This document shows, piece by piece, positions 1,425-11,722 of a DNA stretch of 11,722 bases. Numbering within the stretch: the first letter of the stretch is position 1; every line of letters starts with the position of its first letter. The position numbers and the translations under genes are program-made. Source of the DNA: Chloroflexota bacterium (GTDB lineage: Bacteria > Chloroflexota > Anaerolineae > Promineifilales > Promineifilaceae); NCBI GenBank assembly GCA_024223125.1, contig JAAEOP010000305.1, positions 1 through 11,722 on the forward strand, written 5' to 3'. The notes under the pieces are model-generated. The model was not told the DNA's origin. It saw nothing but the letters and a program-made list of their open reading frames with translations, and searched no databases.

Positions 1425-1694
1425 GTTCCCCGCCGTACATCACCGGGGCGAGGCGATGGGGGGGAATGGTTTGGTGGATGACATGGATCATGGCCCATCG
1501 CAATTGGGGCGAGGCGATGGGTGACAATGGTTTGGTGGATGACATGGATCATGGCCCATCGCAATTGGGCGAGGCGATGGGTGACAATGGTTTGGTGGAT
1601 GACATGGATCATGGCCCATCGCAATTGGGGCGAGGCGATGGGGGGGAATGTGTTGGTGATTGGCATAGATCGTGGTCCATCGCCTCGCCCCTAC
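1358..1694. repeat. REP-like repeat array B, between RAYT and the HsdR remnant
   Basis: Same plan and orientation as array A. The GTAG head is at 1358, with stem arms at about 1361-1376 and 1410-1424. Four tandem units open with GGGCGAGGCGATGGG at 1445 (unit 1), 1506, 1567 (one G short) and 1627, giving steps of 61, 61 and 60/61 bases. The inverted tail CCATCGCCTCGCCCCTAC is at 1677-1694. The internal unit text (GGTTTGGTGGATGACATGG) differs from array A (CATTTTGGTGAATGGCGTGG), but the units within each array are almost identical, as expected if each array expands or homogenises by itself. Within each unit boundary CCCATCGC and GCGATGGG face each other across 12 bases, so every junction can fold into a small hairpin. 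Confidence 0.9.
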
Positions 1695-1731
1695 CATTGG
1701 TGTTTGGAATATTGGGGTAAAATTTGGAAAC

Positions 1732-3528
1732 ATGAGCAATTTTACGTTTTTGAAAACCAAAGAGTGGCAAGACCTTTATCAAGCGGCGGTGCAGGCGGAG
1801 CGGTATACGTTGGCCGATGCCCGTACCGCGCTGTTTCACGGCCGTCGCGCCATCGAGCTAATGGTGGAGTGGTTGTATGCGTATGATGGGGCGTTTAGAC
1901 GGCCGTACAACGACTCCCTCAGCGCCCTCATGGCCGACGCCGGGTTCAAGGAACATGTGCCCCACGGTGTCCGCCAAAAAATGCACGCCATACGGATTTG
2001 GGGGAATTCGGCTGTGCATCGAGATAGCCCCGTCCGCTCCGCCGACGCGCTGGCGATAATAAAAGAGTTGTTCCACGCGGCGCATTGGTTCGGCCGTACC
2101 TACACCCAGAGCGACCCCAACGCCATCCCCGACCAATTCGACGAGAAGGCACTGCCGTCCCCGGCACGGGAAGTTGCCCGCCAAAGTCGGGCACAGTTAA
2201 AAACGCTGGCTCAAGCATACCTAAAACGGGACGAAGATCTGCGCCAGGAACGGGAGACTATCGCTGCGCTCAAAGCAGAATTGGAAGCGCTGCGGAATCA
2301 GGTTTCCGTGACCAAAGTCGTCAACGAGGCGATCCCCGACACCTACGATTATGACTACACCGAAGCCGAAACGCGCCGTTTGCTCATTGATGTGCTGCTG
2401 CGGGAAGTGGGCTGGGAGATTTCGCAAGACGCAAGAAACTGGGTTTTTGATAAAAATCCGGTTTCTGCTGAACTCGAACCGCTGCGCCGGGAGTTGGCCG
2501 ATGCTTTGCACCAAACTGTGCAGACGATGAATCTGAATAATTTTATTGTGCGTCCGAAACGGCCGTATGTAGAACCGTTCCAGCAGCGCGGCCGTTGGGA
2601 CAATTTGAGCCGCTCCGACATCGCCGACCTGAGCCAACATGTGGCCGGGCTGCCTGCCCAGCTTCCCGACGAACCGGAAACGGCCAAGCGATTTGATTTG
2701 CTCATCTATCATTTACAGTTATCTCTCCTGCATGGCGAGACGAAGGCAGTCGAATCGCTGCAAAATCGGGTCATGCAAATGGCGTTCCTGCTCAATGAAA
2801 AAGGGAGTATCCCGGCCGTGCAGGCGCGGATGGCGCTCATCCAGCGCGTCCAAACGGAGGCGTACTGGCAAGAAATCACGCTGCCGCAGTTGGAAGATTT
2901 ACGCCGCGCCCTGCGTGACTTAACCCGTTTCATCGAACGGCCGAAGCAAAATGTGGTTGTCACCGACTTCACTGACGAGTTTGGGAAGGCAAAGCCAACG
3001 TATCTGCCAGAAGTGAGCCAGGGGGTGAACATCATCCAGTACCGGCGCAAGGTGGAGCAGTTTATCCGTGCCAATGAGGATGCGGTGGTCATTTGCAAAA
3101 TCCGCTGGGCGATGCCGCTCACGCCGGAGAATTTGGACGCTTTGGATGAGATTCTCTTTCCGGCGGAGGCGGTTGGCTCGGAGTCGGAGTTTGCCCGTGC
3201 GTTTGGTACGCCGTCCAACCTGGCGGAATTCGTGCGCGGGTTGGTGGGGCTGGATCGGCAGGCGGCGAAGGAGAAGTTTGCCCGGTTTTTGGATGGCAAC
3301 AATTACAATGCCGACCAAATCCAGTTTGTGAACTTCATCATTGACCACCTCACCAAGAATGGGATAATGGAACCGAGGCTGTTGTGGGAACGGCCGTTTG
3401 TAGATTTGCACGACGCCGGGCCGGATGGATTATTTGTGAATGAGGATGCGGAGACGTTGCTGGAGACGGTGCGGCAGATTAACAGGGCAACCATTGTCTC
3501 TACTCGGACTCCTCCGACAAACTACTAA
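1732..3528 (+). pseudogene. hsdR: Type I restriction R subunit lacking the nuclease and helicase core
   Basis: HsdR normally translocates and cuts DNA as part of an HsdRMS complex. This 598-residue version keeps the ends only. Residues 1-130 resemble the DUF4145-type N-terminus of HsdR (MSNFTFLKTKEWQDLYQAA, AIRIWGNSAVH), about 144-191 is a charged coiled coil, and 201-230 holds the YDYTEAETRRLLIDVLL block that normally precedes the endonuclease. After about residue 237 the protein jumps straight to an EcoEI_R_C-like C-terminal region (ELEPLRRELADAL, VVVTDFTDEFG, LVGLDRQAAKEKF, ADQIQFVNFIIDHL, residues 244-598). The PD-D/E-x-K nuclease and the whole SF2 helicase, with its Walker boxes, are absent, yet the frame is open. 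Usual length is about 1100 residues or more. I chose ATG 1732 because the earlier in-frame ATG at 1672 lies inside array B; the binding site is weak (GGAAA just upstream). No hsdM or hsdS is visible. It may be a dead gene, an assembly collapse or a repurposed scaffold. Confidence 0.85.
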
Positions 3529-6500
3529 ATGACAACGAACTTAATGCTGCCCCTGGCCGCCTATATCCCTCGTGATCGTGTTGAGAATATGGTTCAGCAA
3601 CGGCCGTTAACCCGAGATGGCGTAGCGATGATTGCTGATATTTCCGGCTTTACCCCTTTGACAGAAGCATTAACCCAGGGGTTAAGCGCCGATCATGGGG
3701 CCGAAGAGTTGACCCGCGCTCTGGATTCTGTTTTTACACCGCTGATTGCTCAGGTACACCGCTACGGCGGCAGCGTCATTAAATTTGGCGGCGACGCGCT
3801 GATTGTCTGGTTTGGTCGGGTAAAACGAGGGCGCCGCACGGCCGTTATTCGCCGCGCTCTGACGGCCGCCGGGCAAATGCAAAAAGTAATGCAGCGTCAC
3901 GGCCGTATTCCCACCCCCATTGGCCCCGTTTCCTTGCAAATGAAAATTGGTCTGGCGTATGGGCCGGTAAAACGGTTTAACCTGGGGCTGCCAGAGATTG
4001 GTTTTGAAGATGTGTTGGCCGGGGCCACGTTGGATCGCATGGCTGACAATGAACATCATGCAGAGCCGGGGGATATTATGGCAGATAGGGAGACGCTGGC
4101 TTATGCGGAGACGGCCGTGACCATCATTGAATGGCGGGATGATGTGGCGGTGGTGGGGAAGATTTTACGGCCGTCGCGCCCCCAACCGTGGCCAGAGCTT
4201 ACCTGGTCGCCAAACAAAGAGACTGATCTTGTAGAACAATTGGCTGCCTACGTGCCCCGGTCTATTGCGGAAACGTTGCAAACGGGGCAAACTCAGGTGG
4301 CTGAACTGAAGCCCGTTCTCAGCTTGTTTGTACAGTTTCACGGGCTGGATTATGACGCTGACCCGGAGATTGAGACGAAGCTGCAAACTTATTTTTGTCT
4401 GGCTCAACAGGTGGTGGCTCGTTATGGCGGCCGTCTTAACCGGCTCATCACCGGCGACAAAGGTTCTTTGCTGCACATTATCTTTGGCGCCCCGCGTAGC
4501 GTGGAGGAGCAGGAGCTACGAGCCATTCGCTGCGCCCTGGATTTGCAGGCGGACTGCGGCCGTCTCCCTTTCATCAGTATGCAGCGTATTGGCGTCACGG
4601 CCGGGCGCGTCTTTGCCGGGCCGGTTGGCTCGCCGCTGCGCCACGATTACACCACGATGGGGGATGCCATTAACCTGTCGGCTCGCCTGATGCAGAATGC
4701 GGCCGCGGATCAGATTTTGTTGGATACGGCCGTGCGCCAACAACTCAACGCCGCCTTCACTATCACCGATTTAGGGAATATCAAAGTCAAAGGCAAAGCC
4801 AACCCCATCCACGTTTACGCCGCCGAAAGCTACCAACAACCAGAACGAGTTCGCCGACGCATCGAGCGCTTGTTTGGTCGAGAGGCAGCGTTATCTGTAA
4901 TCCGTAATCTGTTAGCCGTAGTCCGTAATCGGTCAACAGAATACAGAACACGAAACACGAAACACGGCCACATCCTTACTATCATCGGCGAAGTGGGGCA
5001 GGGCAAAACCTTGTTGTTGGACAATTTGCGGCATGAAGCAGAAATGGAGTGGCAGACCAGTTTGTCTGGCGGGGTGTGGGCGTCTGGCATTAGTCTAGCT
5101 TATGGCAATACGTTTAGCGGCTATTTGTTTATTGAGATTTTGCGTGATTTGCTGAATGTGCCCCCAGGAGCGACGCCGCATCAGACCAGCCAACGGTTGC
5201 GTGATTTTTGTTTGGATTTGTTTGGCAGCGGCCGTCTCGATTCTACTTACCCCTATTTAGCCAAATTTATGAATCTACCTTTGCCGGAGGAGGCGGCCGC
5301 CCGCCTGGATGGGTTGGCCGGAGAGAGTTTGCGCTGGCAAATTTTTGAGCTGCTGCCCGACTTACTGCGACGGGTGTGCGCCCATTATCCGGTTGTGTTG
5401 GCTTTAGATGATTTGCAATGGGCCGATTCCACCTCGCTGCAATTGTTGGAACGGCTGACTCTGCTAACGGCCGATTCACCACTTATCTTGCTGCTGGCAA
5501 TGCGCCCGGAAATGGAGACGCGAGCCTGGGAAATGGCGCTTGGTTGGGACACGCTTGCACTGAGCAACCCCGAAGCGGCCGCGCTGCCCCACACCCGACT
5601 GACCCTCAATGCGCTGGATGACGACGCGGCCGTTGCCCTCATCACCCACCACGCCCCCGATCTGCCAGAGCGGGTTGTCGCTTACCTGGTGGAAAAAGGG
5701 GGCGGCAATCCGCTGTTTTTGGTGGAACTGGTGCGTACTTTGCAGCTAAGTGATGACACTGATTTTGAGGATGTGGCTTTGGATGCGCTCGATTTACCTA
5801 ATTCTGTGCAGGGATTGCTGCTGGCCCAACTAGACCGGTTGGCGGTGGAAATGCGCCATATGTTGCAATTAGCGGCCGTCATTGGCCGCACGTTTTTGGA
5901 TGAGGTGTTGGCGGGCATTAGTACGGCCGAAAAGCAAGTAACAGCATTGATTTCCGAACTGGCCGACCGGGATTATGTCCGTCCTGCCCAGGTCGACCTG
6001 GGCGCGGCACACACCTTCCGTCATGCGCTCATTCAAGAGGGAGCCTACAGTACGCTGCTGCATGAACGCCGCCGCACTTACCATCGTCAGGTGGCGCAGA
6101 CATTTGAGCGTCTCTTCCCGGCCGCCATTGCCGAACAAGCCGCCTTCCTGGCTTACCATTACGAACATGCCGCAGACCTGGACAACGCCATCTACTATCT
6201 CAACCAGACGGCCGATCAAGCTCGCCTCCTATTTGCTCATGAAGAAGCAGAGCTTCTCTATAAACGCATTTTGGATTTGATGGCTCAGGATGAAGGTGTG
6301 GATAGTTACGGCCGTGCCAAAACCTATCTCAAGTTGGCTCACATCTATAGTAACCAGCAAGCCTTTTCTAGCGCCCAAGAATATTACAATTTAGCCTTTG
6401 ATTTATTCGACGACCACTATGAAAAGCGGCAAGATCAACCCGTAGCCAAAACAACGTTCCAAGAAGACACACGCACTTTGAAGTGGGGGGTTATTGAACA

Positions 6501-7959
6501 ATACGTACAAACTTTTGACCCGGCTATGACGGTTAGCAATGAAAATATCTTCTTGGTCGGGAACTTGTTTGAAGGCTTGATGGAATTAGACAATGAATGG
6601 AATGTTATTCCGGCTCTCGCCAGACGTTGGCGCGTTGACGCTACTGGCAGACATTATCAATTTGAGCTGCGGGCAGACTTGAAATGGAGTGATGGCACTT
6701 CACTCACAGCCCACGATTTTGTATTTGCATACAAACGGAACCTTAGCCCCGAAACCAGAGCGAGTAATGCGGGGCAATTATATATTATTGAAGGGGCGGA
6801 ACAGTTCCACAAAGGAGAAAGCCTCGACGCTGAAGTTGCCTTAGGCGTGGCCGCCAGCGATGCGTTCAATCTAAGTATTACCCTGAATTCACCCTCGCAC
6901 TCTTTTCTTTATTTATTGACTGATCCGGTGATGTTTCCGCAACCGGCGCATCAGGTTAAGAAATTTGGAGATCGGTGGAGCAAACCAGAAAATCTAGTCT
7001 GCAATGGCGCTTTTATGCCGATTGTAAAAAAGAACAAGGCGGCGAATTTGGTTCAAAACCCTTATTACCGGGGATATGAATTGGGCAATTTGGAAAAAGT
7101 GTTATTTAGTTTTGTTCATCCCAATATTGACCAATATCAGAATAAGCATATTGATTGGTGCCGGGTGGATGATCAAGCCAATTTAATTCGTCAATACCCG
7201 GATGAAGCTATCCTGGTGCAAGGATTTTTAACGTTCTTCCTTATATATTCCTGCCATGTTCCCCCGTTTAATGATCAAACATGGCGACAGATTTTTGCCC
7301 AATGTATTCACCGTCAAACATTGGTTAGCGACGTTTGGTCAGATGTGCAGCGGCCTGCTTACGGCGGTTTGGTTCCGCCGGGTATGCCGGGACATACACC
7401 CGAAATTAGCCTGGCGTTTAATCCAACGGCCGCGCGTAAGACATTAGAGAGTCATCTGCCCAAGACTCAGTTGCCGCCATCATTAAGACTCATTACCTTG
7501 CCAGGGTTTAAAGAGACGCCTCAATTTCTCAGCCAGGTCTGGGGCGACTATTTGGGTGTGCCAGTTTCAATTGAAGAGAATTTAGCGGCCGATGATCTGA
7601 TTTCCCAATTTCAAGAGGGCAAAGCCCATATGGCGCTGCTAGGCTTTCATTTGGATTATCCTGACCCAGATGAACTATTTCGCACGCTGTTTCACAGCGC
7701 CAGCCCTTTGAACTTTCTCGGCTGGCAAAATGCACGATTCGATGCGCTGCTAGATGGCGCTCTAACAAGCGCAAATCTGTCTGACCGGCTGTCCCGTTAC
7801 CATCAAGCCGACCAATTATTGGTAACAGAAGATGTTGTCGCTGTACCCTTATATTACTTGCAAGCGTATGGTCTGCTACGACCCCATTTTCACTTGATGG
7901 ACTCGGGTAAAATTGTACATGATGGGGCCATCAAATTTAAGAATATCAGGGCAATTTAA
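3529..7959 (+). CDS. Tandem class III cyclase, STAND-type ATPase and family 5 solute-binding domain fusion
   Basis: A 1476-residue multidomain protein. Cyclase domain 1 (about 25-200) has ADISGFT with metal Asp37 and KFGGDA with Lys85 and Asp89. Cyclase domain 2 (about 235-435) has Gln269 where the first metal Asp should be, but keeps TGD (Asp310) and the GDAINLSAR loop with Asn382 and Arg386. Domain 1 lacks a clean copy of that loop, so together they resemble the paired halves of soluble adenylyl cyclase (class IIIb). An AAA/STAND ATPase follows: GRE at 450-452, Walker A GEVGQGKT at 487-494, Walker B VVLALDDLQWAD around Asp627-Asp628, then helical regions and TPR-like repeats to about 965. 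Residues about 978-1476 match family 5 (OppA/DppA type) binding proteins: FDPAMTV, NLFEGLMEL, LKWSDGTSLTAHDFVFAYKR, GAFMPI. No signal peptide or lipobox precedes that part, so it should face the cytoplasm. The ATG directly follows the preceding stop. Cyclic nucleotide synthesis and ligand sensing are inferred. Confidence 0.9.
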   Translation: MTTNLMLPLAAYIPRDRVENMVQQRPLTRDGVAMIADISGFTPLTEALTQGLSADHGAEELTRALDSVFTPLIAQVHRYGGSVIKFGGDALIVWFGRVKRGRRTAVIRRALTAAGQMQKVMQRHGRIPTPIGPVSLQMKIGLAYGPVKRFNLGLPEIGFEDVLAGATLDRMADNEHHAEPGDIMADRETLAYAETAVTIIEWRDDVAVVGKILRPSRPQPWPELTWSPNKETDLVEQLAAYVPRSIAETLQTGQTQVAELKPVLSLFVQFHGLDYDADPEIETKLQTYFCLAQQVVARYGGRLNRLITGDKGSLLHIIFGAPRSVEEQELRAIRCALDLQADCGRLPFISMQRIGVTAGRVFAGPVGSPLRHDYTTMGDAINLSARLMQNAAADQILLDTAVRQQLNAAFTITDLGNIKVKGKANPIHVYAAESYQQPERVRRRIERLFGREAALSVIRNLLAVVRNRSTEYRTRNTKHGHILTIIGEVGQGKTLLLDNLRHEAEMEWQTSLSGGVWASGISLAYGNTFSGYLFIEILRDLLNVPPGATPHQTSQRLRDFCLDLFGSGRLDSTYPYLAKFMNLPLPEEAAARLDGLAGESLRWQIFELLPDLLRRVCAHYPVVLALDDLQWADSTSLQLLERLTLLTADSPLILLLAMRPEMETRAWEMALGWDTLALSNPEAAALPHTRLTLNALDDDAAVALITHHAPDLPERVVAYLVEKGGGNPLFLVELVRTLQLSDDTDFEDVALDALDLPNSVQGLLLAQLDRLAVEMRHMLQLAAVIGRTFLDEVLAGISTAEKQVTALISELADRDYVRPAQVDLGAAHTFRHALIQEGAYSTLLHERRRTYHRQVAQTFERLFPAAIAEQAAFLAYHYEHAADLDNAIYYLNQTADQARLLFAHEEAELLYKRILDLMAQDEGVDSYGRAKTYLKLAHIYSNQQAFSSAQEYYNLAFDLFDDHYEKRQDQPVAKTTFQEDTRTLKWGVIEQYVQTFDPAMTVSNENIFLVGNLFEGLMELDNEWNVIPALARRWRVDATGRHYQFELRADLKWSDGTSLTAHDFVFAYKRNLSPETRASNAGQLYIIEGAEQFHKGESLDAEVALGVAASDAFNLSITLNSPSHSFLYLLTDPVMFPQPAHQVKKFGDRWSKPENLVCNGAFMPIVKKNKAANLVQNPYYRGYELGNLEKVLFSFVHPNIDQYQNKHIDWCRVDDQANLIRQYPDEAILVQGFLTFFLIYSCHVPPFNDQTWRQIFAQCIHRQTLVSDVWSDVQRPAYGGLVPPGMPGHTPEISLAFNPTAARKTLESHLPKTQLPPSLRLITLPGFKETPQFLSQVWGDYLGVPVSIEENLAADDLISQFQEGKAHMALLGFHLDYPDPDELFRTLFHSASPLNFLGWQNARFDALLDGALTSANLSDRLSRYHQADQLLVTEDVVAVPLYYLQAYGLLRPHFHLMDSGKIVHDGAIKFKNIRAI
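4894..4967 (+). repeat. Dispersed repeat embedded in the ATPase domain coding sequence
   Basis: TCTGTAATCCGTAATC at 4894-4909 is nearly identical to TCTGTAATCCGCAATC in the non-coding stretch at 9744-9759. It is followed by GTAGTCCGTAATCGG and a tandem ACACGAA run (about 4948-4967). Inside the gene it encodes residues about 456-479, rich in Arg, Asn and Thr, between the GRE motif and Walker A, where STAND ATPases usually have a short helix. The sequence stays in frame. It looks like an intergenic-type repeat captured as a linker. Confidence 0.55.
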
Positions 7960-9574
7960 CGCAGTTACCGCTGTTAAGCAGTATTCTATGTTGTGAGTCA
8001 GCTACTAGAATGCACATCTTTTCGGCGCCGTAAGGGCCAAACGGCCGTTCACTAAAACTATATTTTGTAAACGGTGAAGAGCCGCCATATAACTTCCATT
8101 TACATTGAGTAGGATCGCTAGGGTAAGGGCACAGCTCCGTCCCTGCATATTTTGGCAAAACAGTGTCAAAGAAGAAATGGACGTGATAATTCTTTGTGTC
8201 CGGCACAAAGTTATGGACTTCAAAGTTAACCACATAGTTAAAATTGGCGTCCAATGTCAGGCTAAGGATTTCAGCAGACTTTATAGTGGAATCGGTATTG
8301 TTCAAAATAGATGGCAGATAAACAGTGTTATCCAAAACAGATGATGTTAATGTGCCGCTGCCGCTTTGTACAAACTGATAATTATTGGGGGAATTATTAT
8401 TAAAGTAGGTTCCAGAAATCCGTACTGTGGTGTTATTGCTGCCGACGCTTGCCACATACAGTCCGCCGCCAGAACCAGAGGCGGTGTTATTCCTAAATGC
8501 GCCTCCTAAAATGGAGATATTGCCCCCGTCCATTTCCGCATACAGCCCGCCCCCTTTGCTGTCTGGTTGATTATCAGCTAAATTGCCATCGAAAACAGTG
8601 TTGTTAATTTGCACCTCCCCACCGATCATATTTAGATAAAGACCACCCCCGTTTTGGCCTGTGTTATTGGTAGTGAATTTACTGTTTTCAATTGTGACGC
8701 GGCCTCCTTCCATCTGAATATAGCCGCCGCCGGCCGATTGGCTGACCAACATTGTCCGATTATCTTCAAATTCACTGTTGCGGATAATTAGCTCGCTGTC
8801 ATCAAAAAGATGGACTTCAAACCCGCCACCACGATTGGCGCTGTTGTTCGTGAAGACGCTGTTATCAATAGTGAGGGAGGAATTATTATAAAGCTCTATG
8901 TACAGACCGCCCCCGTTAAAGTCATCCGCTTCATTAAAATCAAAGAGGCTGTCTTCAATTTGCAGATGAGACCCGCCCCGAATTTCCAAATAGATGCCGC
9001 CGCCATAATCACGAACAAAATTGTCATCGAAAAAGATGTTGTCTAATAATACCTCAGCGCTGTCGCTGATAACCCCGCGCACACCGCCGCCATTAGTGGG
9101 ATTGCCGTTTGTTTCTAAGATGAAGTGCTCGACAATGAGTTTATCTAAGTTGGGAAAAGTGGGATCGTTTGTATCTTCCAGGACAAGGACTGAGCCGGAA
9201 TTATTGAGTTCGGAGCGAGTGATTGGCGCGTGGTAAGAAAAGCCGTGACTCAGAAAATCAATTGTTTCTGTAAATTCCTGGTTATTCGTATCGCAATTTG
9301 TATCTGGAAACCAGCCGCCGCTAAGGCGCAAATTTTTGGTAATAACTGCGTTCCCGGAATCTTTAGCCGGTATCATTTGAGGAATGAAGTCGCCATCTTC
9401 TGCCAGTTGAATAGCCTGCTCAAATGTGCCACAGTTTCCGGCGCCGCTGGCAATGCCTCTCGCTTGTACTTGTGACCAGAGAAACATGAGCGCCATTGTA
9501 GACGTGAATAAACTGAGGAGAATAATAAAGCCAACATACTGCCAACGGGGCGTGTTCTTTTGCCAGGAAGTCAT
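7946..9574 (-). CDS. Secreted Pmp-like parallel beta-helix surface protein
   Basis: A 542-residue exported protein. Residues 14-34 form a hydrophobic signal or anchor helix after a basic N-terminus, ending WSQVQARG. About 45-160 resembles the entry part of right-handed beta-helix proteins (CGTFEQAIQLAEDGD, ITKNLRLSGGW). Eight GGG blocks at residues 162, 191, 221, 249, 282, 309, 341 and 369, mostly followed by (I/L/F/Y)Y or similar, alternate with NSxFxxN segments every 27-33 residues. This pattern is close to the GGA(I/L)/FxxN repeats of polymorphic membrane proteins. VYLPSI (418-423) precedes a separate C-terminal domain of about 110 residues with four cysteines. There is no autotransporter barrel. 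AGGAGA lies upstream (about 9582-9587) at good spacing from ATG 9574. Its stop overlaps the convergent cyclase gene by 14 bases. Likely an adhesin or structural surface protein; partner unknown. Confidence 0.85.
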   Translation of the reverse strand: MTSWQKNTPRWQYVGFIILLSLFTSTMALMFLWSQVQARGIASGAGNCGTFEQAIQLAEDGDFIPQMIPAKDSGNAVITKNLRLSGGWFPDTNCDTNNQEFTETIDFLSHGFSYHAPITRSELNNSGSVLVLEDTNDPTFPNLDKLIVEHFILETNGNPTNGGGVRGVISDSAEVLLDNIFFDDNFVRDYGGGIYLEIRGGSHLQIEDSLFDFNEADDFNGGGLYIELYNNSSLTIDNSVFTNNSANRGGGFEVHLFDDSELIIRNSEFEDNRTMLVSQSAGGGYIQMEGGRVTIENSKFTTNNTGQNGGGLYLNMIGGEVQINNTVFDGNLADNQPDSKGGGLYAEMDGGNISILGGAFRNNTASGSGGGLYVASVGSNNTTVRISGTYFNNNSPNNYQFVQSGSGTLTSSVLDNTVYLPSILNNTDSTIKSAEILSLTLDANFNYVVNFEVHNFVPDTKNYHVHFFFDTVLPKYAGTELCPYPSDPTQCKWKLYGGSSPFTKYSFSERPFGPYGAEKMCILVADSQHRILLNSGNCVKLP

Positions 9575-9899: not shown

Positions 9900-10385
9900 T
9901 TACGAGACTTTCGTCAGCGTGCCCATGATGACTGGGTCGCGGCCACACATCCAGGGGGTGTCGATTTTGGCTTCCACATCCAGCGTATCGCCATCGTCTG
10001 ATAGCTCGCCGGTTACTTCAACCGTTACCTCAAACCCGCCCACATCAATTGTGGCCTCCGCTGCTAACTCGTCAGGGTGCGCGGCCGTCTTTCCGCCTTC
10101 AGCCCACATGGAACTGGCCGGAAGAACAGCGCTGCCGCAAAATCCACCTGCATCCACCAGGAGTCCCCCACCCAGAGATGCCGTACCTGCTACTAAATTA
10201 TCCTCATCGTTTAAGTCAAGGGTGAGGGTGGTTTTGCTGTTATTGTCACCCGTTACTGTGCCTGTAAAAACACCCTCGAATGGTCCCGTTTCTGCATTCT
10301 GCTTCGTTGGCGCGGCAAAAGCCGTCACGCTCAAAATAGATAATGTCACTAATGTAATCAATAAACCTACTGTCAATTTTTTCAT
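9900..10385 (-). CDS. Small secreted beta-rich protein of unknown function
   Basis: A 161-residue protein with a classical signal peptide: MKKLTVGLLI followed by a hydrophobic stretch and an AFA-A cleavage site after about residue 24. The mature part is acidic and rich in Gly, Thr, Asp and Val in an alternating pattern that suggests beta strands (VFTGTVTGDN, TTLTLDLND, VTVEVTGELSDDG). Two cysteines, Cys83 and Cys147, could form one disulfide. I chose ATG 10385 over an in-frame GTG at 10394 because GAGG lies eight bases before the ATG but overlaps the GTG. It is followed by a GC-rich hairpin at 9821-9855. No recognised family; it could be a calycin- or beta-barrel-like extracellular protein, which is a guess from strand pattern alone. 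Confidence 0.8.
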   Translation of the reverse strand: MKKLTVGLLITLVTLSILSVTAFAAPTKQNAETGPFEGVFTGTVTGDNNSKTTLTLDLNDEDNLVAGTASLGGGLLVDAGGFCGSAVLPASSMWAEGGKTAAHPDELAAEATIDVGGFEVTVEVTGELSDDGDTLDVEAKIDTPWMCGRDPVIMGTLTKVS

Positions 10386-10596
10386 GTCATTCACCTCGTT
10401 TTGTTTGATGCTGACAGCTTATCAGAGACAGACGGCCGTTGGCTTTAACCCTGTCTAGCGGCAACCTTAAGACAGCATTAAGTTGCCAGTGGCAAGCAGC
10501 GGAATGTGGCTGTGCATAGGGAGATTGCAGAGACGGCCGTTGGCCTGTTATGATAGAGTGGAAAATAAGTTAACTGACGACCTAATTATTTCTGTT
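10386..10596. other. Intergenic region with direct and inverted repeats
   Basis: No gene seen. It holds two direct copies of AGACGGCCGTTGGC (10430-10443 and 10531-10544); a near copy also forms the right arm of the hairpin at 9842. It also has an imperfect inverted repeat GCAACCTTAA ... TTAAGTTGC (10461-10470 and 10478-10486) and a 13-base palindrome TTGCCAGTGGCAA (10483-10495). These lie between divergent genes and are plausible regulator sites for the minus-strand gene starting at 10385. I see no convincing promoter for that gene. Confidence 0.4.
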
Positions 10597-10624
10597 TTGA
10601 TTTTTATCAGACAATCATTACAAT
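10597..10624 (+). promoter_or_regulatory. Candidate sigma-70 type promoter for the SPFH gene
   Basis: TTGATT at 10597-10602 and TACAAT at 10619-10624 are separated by 16 bases in an AT-rich stretch. A start near 10631 would give a leader of about 140 bases before ATG 10773. Confidence 0.5.
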
Positions 10625-10680
10625 ACAAAAAGGTGCAGTTTCTAACCGTGAAATAAGAAGCCAAACATCGGCGACAATCA

Positions 10681-10742
10681 GCGTTTGATCCAAACTGGAG
10701 AACAAACTGACAGTTTGTTCGGCGCAAATAAACAGTTTGCGC
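10681..10742 (+). promoter_or_regulatory. Leader with three adjacent, mutually compatible and competing hairpins
   Basis: Hairpins in order: GTTTG-ATC-CAAAC (10683-10695); the 21-base GAACAAACTGACAGTTTGTTC (10700-10720), a nine-base stem; and GCGCAAA-TAAACAG-TTTGCGC (10722-10742). CAAACTG occurs at 10691 and 10703, and its complement CAGTTTG at 10711 and 10733, so alternative pairings exclude each other. This is the layout of an attenuator, a protein-binding leader or a paired operator. It ends 30 bases before the SPFH start codon. Confidence 0.5.
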
Positions 10743-10772
10743 TATAAGTGAAGATCGGGAGAAAAAACCCTC

Positions 10773-11722
10773 ATGAATGATAAAGTGATTATTGGGATAG
10801 TCATCACAGTCTTAGCGCTTGCGTTGAGCATTGCGGCCGTTGTCACCTGGGGCGTAGTTGGGTTAATCGGGGTACTTATTGTTTTGGCCATTGTCGCTAT
10901 CGTCACTTTCTTCCAGCAGCGTAAGGGGTATGTTCGCCTCAACGAGTTGGAAGTGGGGGTCTTGTTTGATAGGCATGGTAATTTCATCTGCTTTTTGGAT
11001 AATGAGTACGGCCGTGTCTACCCTCAATCAGCCAACAAACCCAACCATTGCCAACCCTTAGACAACCCCATCCGGCGACACGCCGTCAACCCCGCCCAGG
11101 AACGGATGACTGCTACCATCTCTAAGGGCCTTATCACGGCTACCGGCACTGCCAAACAAATTCGCACTCTGGAAGGCATCCCCATTGATATTCCTTGGAG
11201 CTTTGCCTTCCGCATAGAAGTTTGCAGCATCCTATCGGGCATCGAACTCAAAATGGCGCGTGCTTTACCAGAATTTTCTACCAATATCATTGCCGGCCGG
11301 GTCAAACATGCTTTGCAACATATTATCAGCTGCACCCCCATCGCCGACTTGTATGCTTTTGAACAGGGTGATGACGACGACGACGGCCGTGGCCCCATCC
11401 AACGTCTGGAAGATGAATTGTGCGTTATGGTGATGGAACGATCGAAAATATTGGGCATTACTGGGAGTGGCTTGAATGATGTGCGCCTGGGGCCAATTGA
11501 ACTTCCGGCCCAATTGGAAAAAGCCCTGAGAGCAGCCCATCAACGGCAGTTGCAAACAGAAACAATGGGACATGCGCTGGAAGTGTTGCAAAAAGCTGTG
11601 TCAAACTTCTCTGAAGAAGATATGCAGCGGTTAACCACCCTGGAACGGCTGCGAATCATTGACGAAAACAGCAAATCAATGGTCTACGTCACCGACGCCT
11701 TTGTCAGCTCAAAATCAGATTC
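10773..11722 (+). CDS. SPFH/band-7 (stomatin-prohibitin-like) membrane protein, 3' end outside the window
   Basis: The frame is open from ATG 10773 to the last base, 316 complete codons. Residues 5-47 form a long hydrophobic stretch that can make two membrane helices. It is followed by QQRKGYVRLNELEVGVLFDRHGN, typical of the start of an SPFH domain, which scaffolds membrane microdomains and often partners with proteases or NfeD. The middle includes the IDIPWSFAFRIEV strand (138-150) and NIIAGRVKHALQHII (171-185). Residues 200-204 are five consecutive aspartates in a probable loop. From 245 on, a charged helical region begins (LPAQLEKALRAAHQRQLQTE). GGGAG at 10757-10761 is a possible binding site at a long 11-base spacing. 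Upstream lie a promoter and hairpin leader. Assignment to SPFH is good; the exact subfamily is not determined. Confidence 0.8.
   Translation, partial: MNDKVIIGIVITVLALALSIAAVVTWGVVGLIGVLIVLAIVAIVTFFQQRKGYVRLNELEVGVLFDRHGNFICFLDNEYGRVYPQSANKPNHCQPLDNPIRRHAVNPAQERMTATISKGLITATGTAKQIRTLEGIPIDIPWSFAFRIEVCSILSGIELKMARALPEFSTNIIAGRVKHALQHIISCTPIADLYAFEQGDDDDDGRGPIQRLEDELCVMVMERSKILGITGSGLNDVRLGPIELPAQLEKALRAAHQRQLQTETMGHALEVLQKAVSNFSEEDMQRLTTLERLRIIDENSKSMVYVTDAFVSSKSD

Follow-up and report, generated by a model that had tools for sequence, protein, structure and literature searches.

We analyzed an 11,722-nucleotide stretch of a Chloroflexota genome assembly (GCA_024223125.1, contig JAAEOP010000305.1), which we call the window. 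The gene at 3529..7959 probably encodes a nucleotide cyclase of the STAND class that acts in the cytoplasm, is triggered by a ligand and uses a family 5 solute-binding protein (SBP) domain as an exchangeable sensor. Comparison of related sequences indicates that in at least some lineages the SBP is a specificity module that can be replaced. In one related locus, the SBP and the mature part of a convergent beta-helix gene are replaced together, as a block of approximately 3 kb between flanks that are about 90% identical.

Domain architecture and authenticity of the fusion

An initial annotation, made from the window's sequence alone, had proposed that this gene encodes one protein in which two cyclase domains and a STAND ATPase precede a complete oligopeptide-type binding protein. 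The gene is indeed an uninterrupted single frame of 1476 codons, with Pfam matches in the proposed order to Guanylate_cyc (4.1e-17, in two stretches), AAA_16 (2.7e-13) and SBP_bac_5 (8.3e-49). The features of the gene and its convergent neighbor are as follows.

3529..7959 (+): whole gene, 1476 aa plus stop; C1-C2 cyclase, STAND ATPase, TPR-like arm and SBP_bac_5 (Pfam)
3610..4173 (+): first cyclase domain, C1 (residues 28-215), carrying the metal aspartates D37 and D89 (alignment, conservation, fold)
4246..4836 (+): second cyclase domain, C2 (residues 240-436), carrying N382 and R386 (Pfam, alignment, conservation, fold)
4855..5598 (+): STAND P-loop ATPase core, residues 443-690 (AAA_16; K493, D628 and D633; structural matches to MalT and 6mfv)
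5599..6438 (+): arm and TPR-like helices, residues 691-970, linking ATPase and sensor (weak TPR_12, models, MalT match)
6226..6408 (+): presumed position of the usual exchange boundary, residues about 900-960 (as judged from relatives)
6460..7956 (+): complete family 5 solute-binding domain, residues 978-1476, the variable sensor part (Pfam, PDB alignment, predicted fold)
7946..9574 (-): gene convergent with the cyclase gene, for a secreted protein of 542 aa with a right-handed beta-helix (weak Chlam_PMP; PF13229 in many relatives)
9458..9574 (-): hydrophobic N-terminal stretch of the beta-helix protein (similar to a signal peptide on visual inspection)

The ATPase core has a P-loop and a Walker B motif of the AAA_16 type (GEVGQGKT at 487-494 and ALDDLQWAD at 625-633), and K493, D628 and D633 are invariant across a 38-row alignment of the window protein and its relatives. 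The structural match to MalT covers residues 443-930. Ahead of the SBP there are only weak TPR matches, the TPR_12 match to the arm lying under its Pfam cut-off. As the initial annotation had stated, there is no export signal: a Kyte-Doolittle scan revealed no hydrophobic N-terminus, linker or membrane span, and its highest 19-residue mean (1.58) lies at residue 1227, within the SBP. We infer that the protein is cytoplasmic.

A frameshift or misassembly near 6420-6480 could have joined two separate genes. This possibility is excluded by the relatives. A search with the cyclase head gave 1552 matches, of which we considered the best 120. Heads in the first 86 rows are at least 51% identical to the query, and 81 of these 86 (the window's own included) carry SBP_bac_5; moreover, 38 rows align through the junction. 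The five close heads lacking the domain are P0247, in which TPRs replace it, and P0241, P0242, P0248 and P0252, which are proteins of 840-951 aa (P, L and G numbers are our identifiers for relatives). The C1-C2 head of P0247 is 66% identical to that of the window, and its TPRs represent another sensor type on the same chassis. The remaining 34 rows have heads that are 39-46% identical; among these listed matches none has SBP_bac_5, and most have TPRs. Thus, the SBP sits in the place of the TPRs and marks the group of close heads. Among the best 120 of 595 matches to the SBP part in proteins of comparable overall length, 62 of the first 67 rows (the window's included) are labelled Guanylate_cyc, AAA_16 and SBP_bac_5.

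Carriers are sparse. An SBP match at E up to 1e-55 occurs in 7 of 301 sampled genomes of the phylum, with those in G023, G056 and G294 being matches to proteins of other than the C1-C2 type (other-type below), and a cyclase head at E up to 1e-95 occurs in 6 of 396 genomes of the class. The C1-C2-type loci L001-L009, L011, L012 and L014 belong to Chloroflexota. Each of the 12 genomes that we reached through loci has one C1-C2-type match, with head and SBP on separate contigs in G011. Their other SBP matches consist of one long other-type protein each in G002 and G003 and, elsewhere, frames of about 540-760 aa.

Probable replacement of the sensor in relatives

The SBP is the least conserved of six parts that we compared in 31 relatives, with a mean identity to the window of 0.465, versus 0.685-0.728 for the cyclases. 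We compared SBP identity with that of the chassis, defined as residues 1-890, in 3240 pairs drawn from 81 proteins. The chassis is at least 0.85 identical in 30 pairs, among which SBP identity is bimodal: 6 pairs have at least 0.849, the other 24 have at most 0.672, and no pair falls in the gap. Among the six similar pairs, P0062 and L009 are nearly one protein (0.995), and three of the pairs involve P0062, P0250 and L009. The 24 divergent pairs form six clusters: P0008/P0030/P0031/P0037/P0042/L002 (15 pairs), P0026/P0032/P0043/L003 (4 pairs), P0009/P0020/P0028 (2 pairs) and the single pairs P0004/P0021, P0065/P0067 and P0007/P0051. Near-identity ends just past the last TPR motif, near residue 957, in P0030/P0042, P0026/P0043 and P0004/P0021. 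It ends near 900 in P0020/P0028 and near 1080, within the SBP, in P0065/P0067.

At the DNA level, the replacement is visible between the loci L111 and L004. L111, read as its reverse complement, encodes two proteins that are 100% identical to P0028 and P0134. In the coordinates of this comparison, the loci are 89-91% identical through most of the chassis (to 7166) and 88.7% identical from 10157 outwards, where the right-hand edge lies about 85 codons inside the beta-helix gene. The intervening 3.0 kb, which hold the SBP and most of the mature beta-helix, show scattered matches only, of at most 73%. In 200-base steps, identity is 0.78-0.97 in the chassis, 0.49-0.68 in the block, 0.90-0.93 at 10401-11400 and 0.60 in the last step, while the control pair L004/L006 retains 0.70-0.93 within the block. 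P0134 shares 0.91 identity with the L004 and L006 proteins in the N-terminal segment and 0.55 in the helix; the corresponding means over 1376 pairs are 0.30 and 0.45. In L111, then, the signal-peptide-like segment is kept and the mature beta-helix part is replaced.

P0028 also has about 50 extra residues between C1 and C2 (residues about 225-281) in an otherwise near-identical chassis. One chassis step drops to 0.43 at this stretch, where L004/L006 gives 0.52.

L002/L003 is a weaker second case. Here C1-C2 is 0.88 identical and the protein beyond the beta-helix is 84% identical, with 0.60 for the SBP and 0.34 for the beta-helix in between, and the STAND part also differs (0.61).

The putative ligand pocket

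The C-terminal binding protein is complete, as had been proposed. The SBP_bac_5 match (residues 1026-1391) covers positions 2-364 of the 368 in the profile. A phmmer search against PDB chains aligns OppA and DppE over about residues 993-1452, which comprise both lobes, and the C-terminal 499 residues align along both lobes with the PDB sequences of DppE, OppA and MppA. The predicted structure of this part matches liganded SBPs over almost its entire length. There is neither an export signal nor a lipoprotein anchor, and none of the six window proteins scanned with Pfam is an ABC permease or ATPase. In the loci of relatives, neighbors were compared with each other, without naming families.

Loss of the ligand pocket would have spoken against a sensor, and on this point the evidence is divided: the fold is kept, and most contact positions have changed. 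Of 21 ligand contact positions of OppA, 20 could be aligned to the window SBP. Eighteen differ, with only G1372 and D1376 identical, and four basic contacts of OppA are now hydrophobic (K307 to W, H371 to F, R404 to F and R413 to L). In the 38-row alignment, 16 of the 32 C1-C2 rows have Asp at D1376, the equivalent of D419, as do all six rows with other output types; the latter also all keep the surrounding ADYPDPD motif. The contact positions are on average more variable than the SBP overall (2.04 vs 1.66 bits), and 461 of 10,000 random sets of positions were as high. This pattern would fit changing specificity or a loss of binding, the latter weighing against a working sensor; in itself, it gives no support to peptide binding in the manner of OppA. 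Therefore, peptide specificity is unproven, and we withdraw that part of the initial proposal that the protein turns peptide or solute binding into a cyclic nucleotide signal. A cytoplasmic converter of solute binding into such a signal is still the best reading, to which we add probable gating by the STAND core.

Alternatively, the SBP fold could recognize a protein or surface, with a vestigial pocket, in a STAND receptor that might be polymorphic and serve defence or kin recognition. The high variability of the SBP, its bimodal identities and the altered contacts would suit such a receptor, and STAND receptors with variable C-terminal sensors are described for multicellular bacteria (PMC10907252). 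The cyclase part also has PADLOC matches to PycC, which are weak and partial (best 41.5 bits) and reflect general class III cyclase similarity. We rejected an assignment to Pycsar on this basis, and no effector model (PycTIR or PycTM) matched the other five window proteins in PADLOC. We consider the protein-sensing explanation unlikely, given that the predicted domain resembles liganded SBPs almost throughout, that the retained ADYPDPD motif suggests a working pocket in the rows with other outputs, and that no known toxic effector was recognized among the six window proteins scanned.

Exchange or ordinary divergence

It is also conceivable that the SBP and the beta-helix simply evolve faster than the chassis, without cassette exchange, and that L111 is at most a single event. 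Several observations weigh against exchange and could fit this explanation. Mean SBP identity lies under chassis identity in all bins from 0.5 upward. Fifteen of the 24 divergent pairs come from one six-protein cluster, throughout which SBP identities are similar to each other (0.59-0.67). Approximately unbiased (AU) tests of a common history of chassis and SBP gave no rejection in four of seven cases: P0012+P0035 (p 0.16), P0008+P0030+P0042 (0.64), P0004+P0021+P0033 (0.13) and, for the head tree, the window's own pairing with P0002, P0001+P0002 (0.125). In addition, all groups were chosen post hoc, with both trees already seen. Nonetheless, we regard fast divergence as quite improbable. It does not readily explain why, among pairs with a chassis identity of at least 0.85, no SBP identity falls in 0.673-0.848, nor why identity drops steeply within tens of residues at the TPR/SBP border. 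A common history was rejected in the three other AU tests (p 3e-4, 5e-4 and 9e-5), and the contrast in P0134 between the conserved signal segment and the divergent helix departs strongly from the averages.

The window protein itself has no near-identical chassis partner among the relatives compared. Among 17 loci, its SBP is nearest to P0002 (0.72, next 0.52), its head to P0010 (0.81) and its beta-helix to P0122 (0.70), whose assigned partner is P0025. This mix of nearest relatives suggests a mosaic, but does not prove one. In all eight genes compared, the head has a higher GC content at third codon positions than the SBP part. No silent SBP cassettes were seen in the 12 genomes at E up to 1e-20.

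Cyclase site and proposed mechanism

The first 448 residues align with the PDB sequence of human soluble adenylyl cyclase (sAC, ADCY10). Both metal aspartates in C1 (D37 and D89) and the transition-state Asn and Arg in C2 (N382 and R386) are present, and D37 and D89 are kept in all 31 C1-C2 rows of the alignment that have the column. The base-recognition Lys/Thr pair of sAC, K334/T405, aligns with R305/T375, and K311 aligns with sAC chain position 340. The position of R305 is Arg in 37 of 38 rows. The replacement of this Lys counts against the reading that we propose below, in which cyclic AMP (cAMP) is the most likely product. ADCY10-type cyclases have a long TPR-type C-terminus; in the window protein, a family 5 SBP occupies that place. 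We rejected the TOMM system kinase/cyclase fusion (TIGR03903), for which the score is 192.5 bits versus an equivalog cut-off of 705.75 bits.

We propose that the STAND ATPase would keep the C1-C2 cyclase inactive at rest. A solute entering between the two SBP lobes would close the SBP, and this closure, along with ATP exchange, would release the STAND core to rearrange or oligomerize. The released core would then switch on a single active site, to which C1 would contribute the metal aspartates and C2 the Asn and Arg. In evolution, lineages would retain the 5′ chassis while recombination close to the TPR/SBP border would bring in different SBPs, in at least one case along with the mature part of the convergent beta-helix gene. 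A degenerate or constitutive enzyme with the SBP as a passive scaffold would account for the lost OppA contacts, and is highly improbable given the many SBP positions (e.g., W1053, A1067 and R1070) that are invariant over 38 rows down to 28% identity to the window and the presence of the domain in nearly all close heads.

Exchange of outputs

The opposite end of the STAND-SBP core also appears to vary. We inferred a quick LG+G4 tree of 88 SBP segments, rooted on secreted SBPs and including 21 C1-C2 proteins (about every third). The C1-C2 type occupies one branch with a support of 100. The remaining long SBP proteins are a mix of protein kinase, SARP/BTAD, SARP plus kinase, single cyclase and zinc-ribbon cyclase outputs, and the output labels need 21 changes on the tree when rows with unassigned outputs are omitted. 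For example, the SBPs of P0090 (cyclase) and P0098 (kinase) are 90% identical, and those of P0084 (SARP) and P0096 (kinase) are 89% identical. The outputs of P0090 and P0098 were verified by Pfam; the other assignments are precomputed labels. Judging from these sequences, the core occurs joined to varied outputs, including kinase, SARP and single cyclase. Exchange of outputs and sensors is visible only in the relatives.

Some STAND proteins have tandem SBPs (three in P0003 and two in P0052). The PF19962 (EAD9) label of P0003 was not counted as an output, because it is below the cut-off and lies inside the SBP repeat. P0068, P0083 and P0103 have hydrophobic N-termini and two SBP_bac_5-like stretches, and are apparently secreted double SBPs.

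The convergent beta-helix gene

The initial annotation was silent on the beta-helix gene, which overlaps the cyclase gene by 14 nt at the stop codons. In all 15 C1-C2-type loci (the window, G001-G012, G129 and G628), a beta-helix gene abuts or slightly overlaps the end of the cyclase gene on the same side and in the same orientation. The beta-helix gene of G001 and the heads of G009, G010 and G011 are truncated by contig ends, and the type of G010 was assigned from its SBP alone. This gene is the only neighbor common to all loci compared. No beta-helix match was found in the flanks, some of them short, of 12 loci with other-type SBP-bearing matches (L010, L013, L016, L019, L020, L032, L092, L093, L101, L102, L104 and L105). 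For the window's beta-helix protein, 435 matches were obtained, of which the best 120 include at least 45 clear relatives at E at most 2.8e-48.

Over 18 loci, the distances of the SBP and of the beta-helix still correlate when the head is controlled for (partial r 0.38, 5 of 1000 permutations). The correlation nearly vanishes when the arm is controlled for (partial r 0.10), and we consider a specific co-divergence of the two parts weak. For 11 proteins in these comparisons, partners were assigned indirectly, and P0028/P0134 is the only pair confirmed on one piece of DNA. The constant pairing and the one joint replacement favor a partnership of the beta-helix protein with the SBP, and the weak correlation given the arm does not.

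Tentatively, the convergent pair could be a single exchangeable recognition locus, in which the cytoplasmic SBP and the secreted mature beta-helix form a matched receptor and partner that is read via cyclic nucleotides, possibly in kin recognition; we give this idea a modest chance. The genes lie tail to tail, with their variable 3′ parts adjoining between conserved 5′ parts, so one double crossover could swap both specificities. If the idea is true, such a crossover would spare both promoters, the signal peptide and the signalling chassis.

Relation to known systems

MalT is a DNA-binding activator; relative to MalT and other STAND transducers, the window protein differs in having an SBP as its sensor and a cyclase as its output. 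OppA, DppE and MppA are exported and serve ABC importers, whereas the window SBP lacks an export signal and most OppA contacts. If the proposed function is correct, the one-protein route from solute to second messenger extends to a cytoplasmic class of SBPs, for which SgrR is the clearest precedent known to us.

According to PMC13060122, SgrR and DsvR are transcription factors that resemble the window protein in using a C-terminal SBP_bac_5 domain as a sensor instead of as part of a transporter. They differ in having an N-terminal helix-turn-helix and neither ATPase nor cyclase; the N-terminus of the window protein is a cyclase, and no helix-turn-helix match was found in it. Diversity-generating retroelement (DGR) systems, as described in PMC10907252, also combine a STAND receptor with a variable C-terminal sensor in multicellular bacteria, with filamentous Chloroflexi named among the forms. 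In DGR systems a retroelement diversifies CLec domains, while here the whole SBP is replaced, once along with the 3′ part of the neighboring gene. The best-ranked records of the literature that we searched, in titles and the beginnings of abstracts with few subscription journals, did not describe the fusion or the cassette exchange. In PMC7159879, a search for SBP and SARP terms found nothing, and adenylyl cyclase appeared once, in the reference list. PMC8546545, on the kinase PknG and its TPR scaffold, contains the word solute-binding once.

Exchange is thus recorded at both ends of the STAND-SBP core, with different outputs on SBPs up to 90% identical and different sensors at the opposite end. 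The family offers a candidate connection between a secreted protein and a receptor in the cytoplasm, as well as natural pairs with identical chassis for measuring changes in sensor specificity.

Other features of the window

Upstream of the cyclase gene, REP-like repeats at 467-1690 comprise four copies of about 147 nt and two of 71 nt, with inverted arms. An open reading frame resembling Y1_Tnp (794-1336) lies among them, and the whole resembles a REP-associated tyrosine transposase together with the repeats that belong to it. The 618-aa protein encoded at 1672-3528 (+) has DUF4145 and EcoEI_R_C, as at the ends of type I restriction R subunits, and no helicase match. Its stop codon directly abuts the ATG of the cyclase gene, and the ten loci compared have no homolog next to their cyclase genes. 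Beyond the beta-helix gene, 9903-10394 (-) encodes a protein of 164 aa that has a hydrophobic segment at its N-terminus and no Pfam match, and a gene for a Band_7/SPFH protein at 10773-11720 (+) runs off the end of the window.
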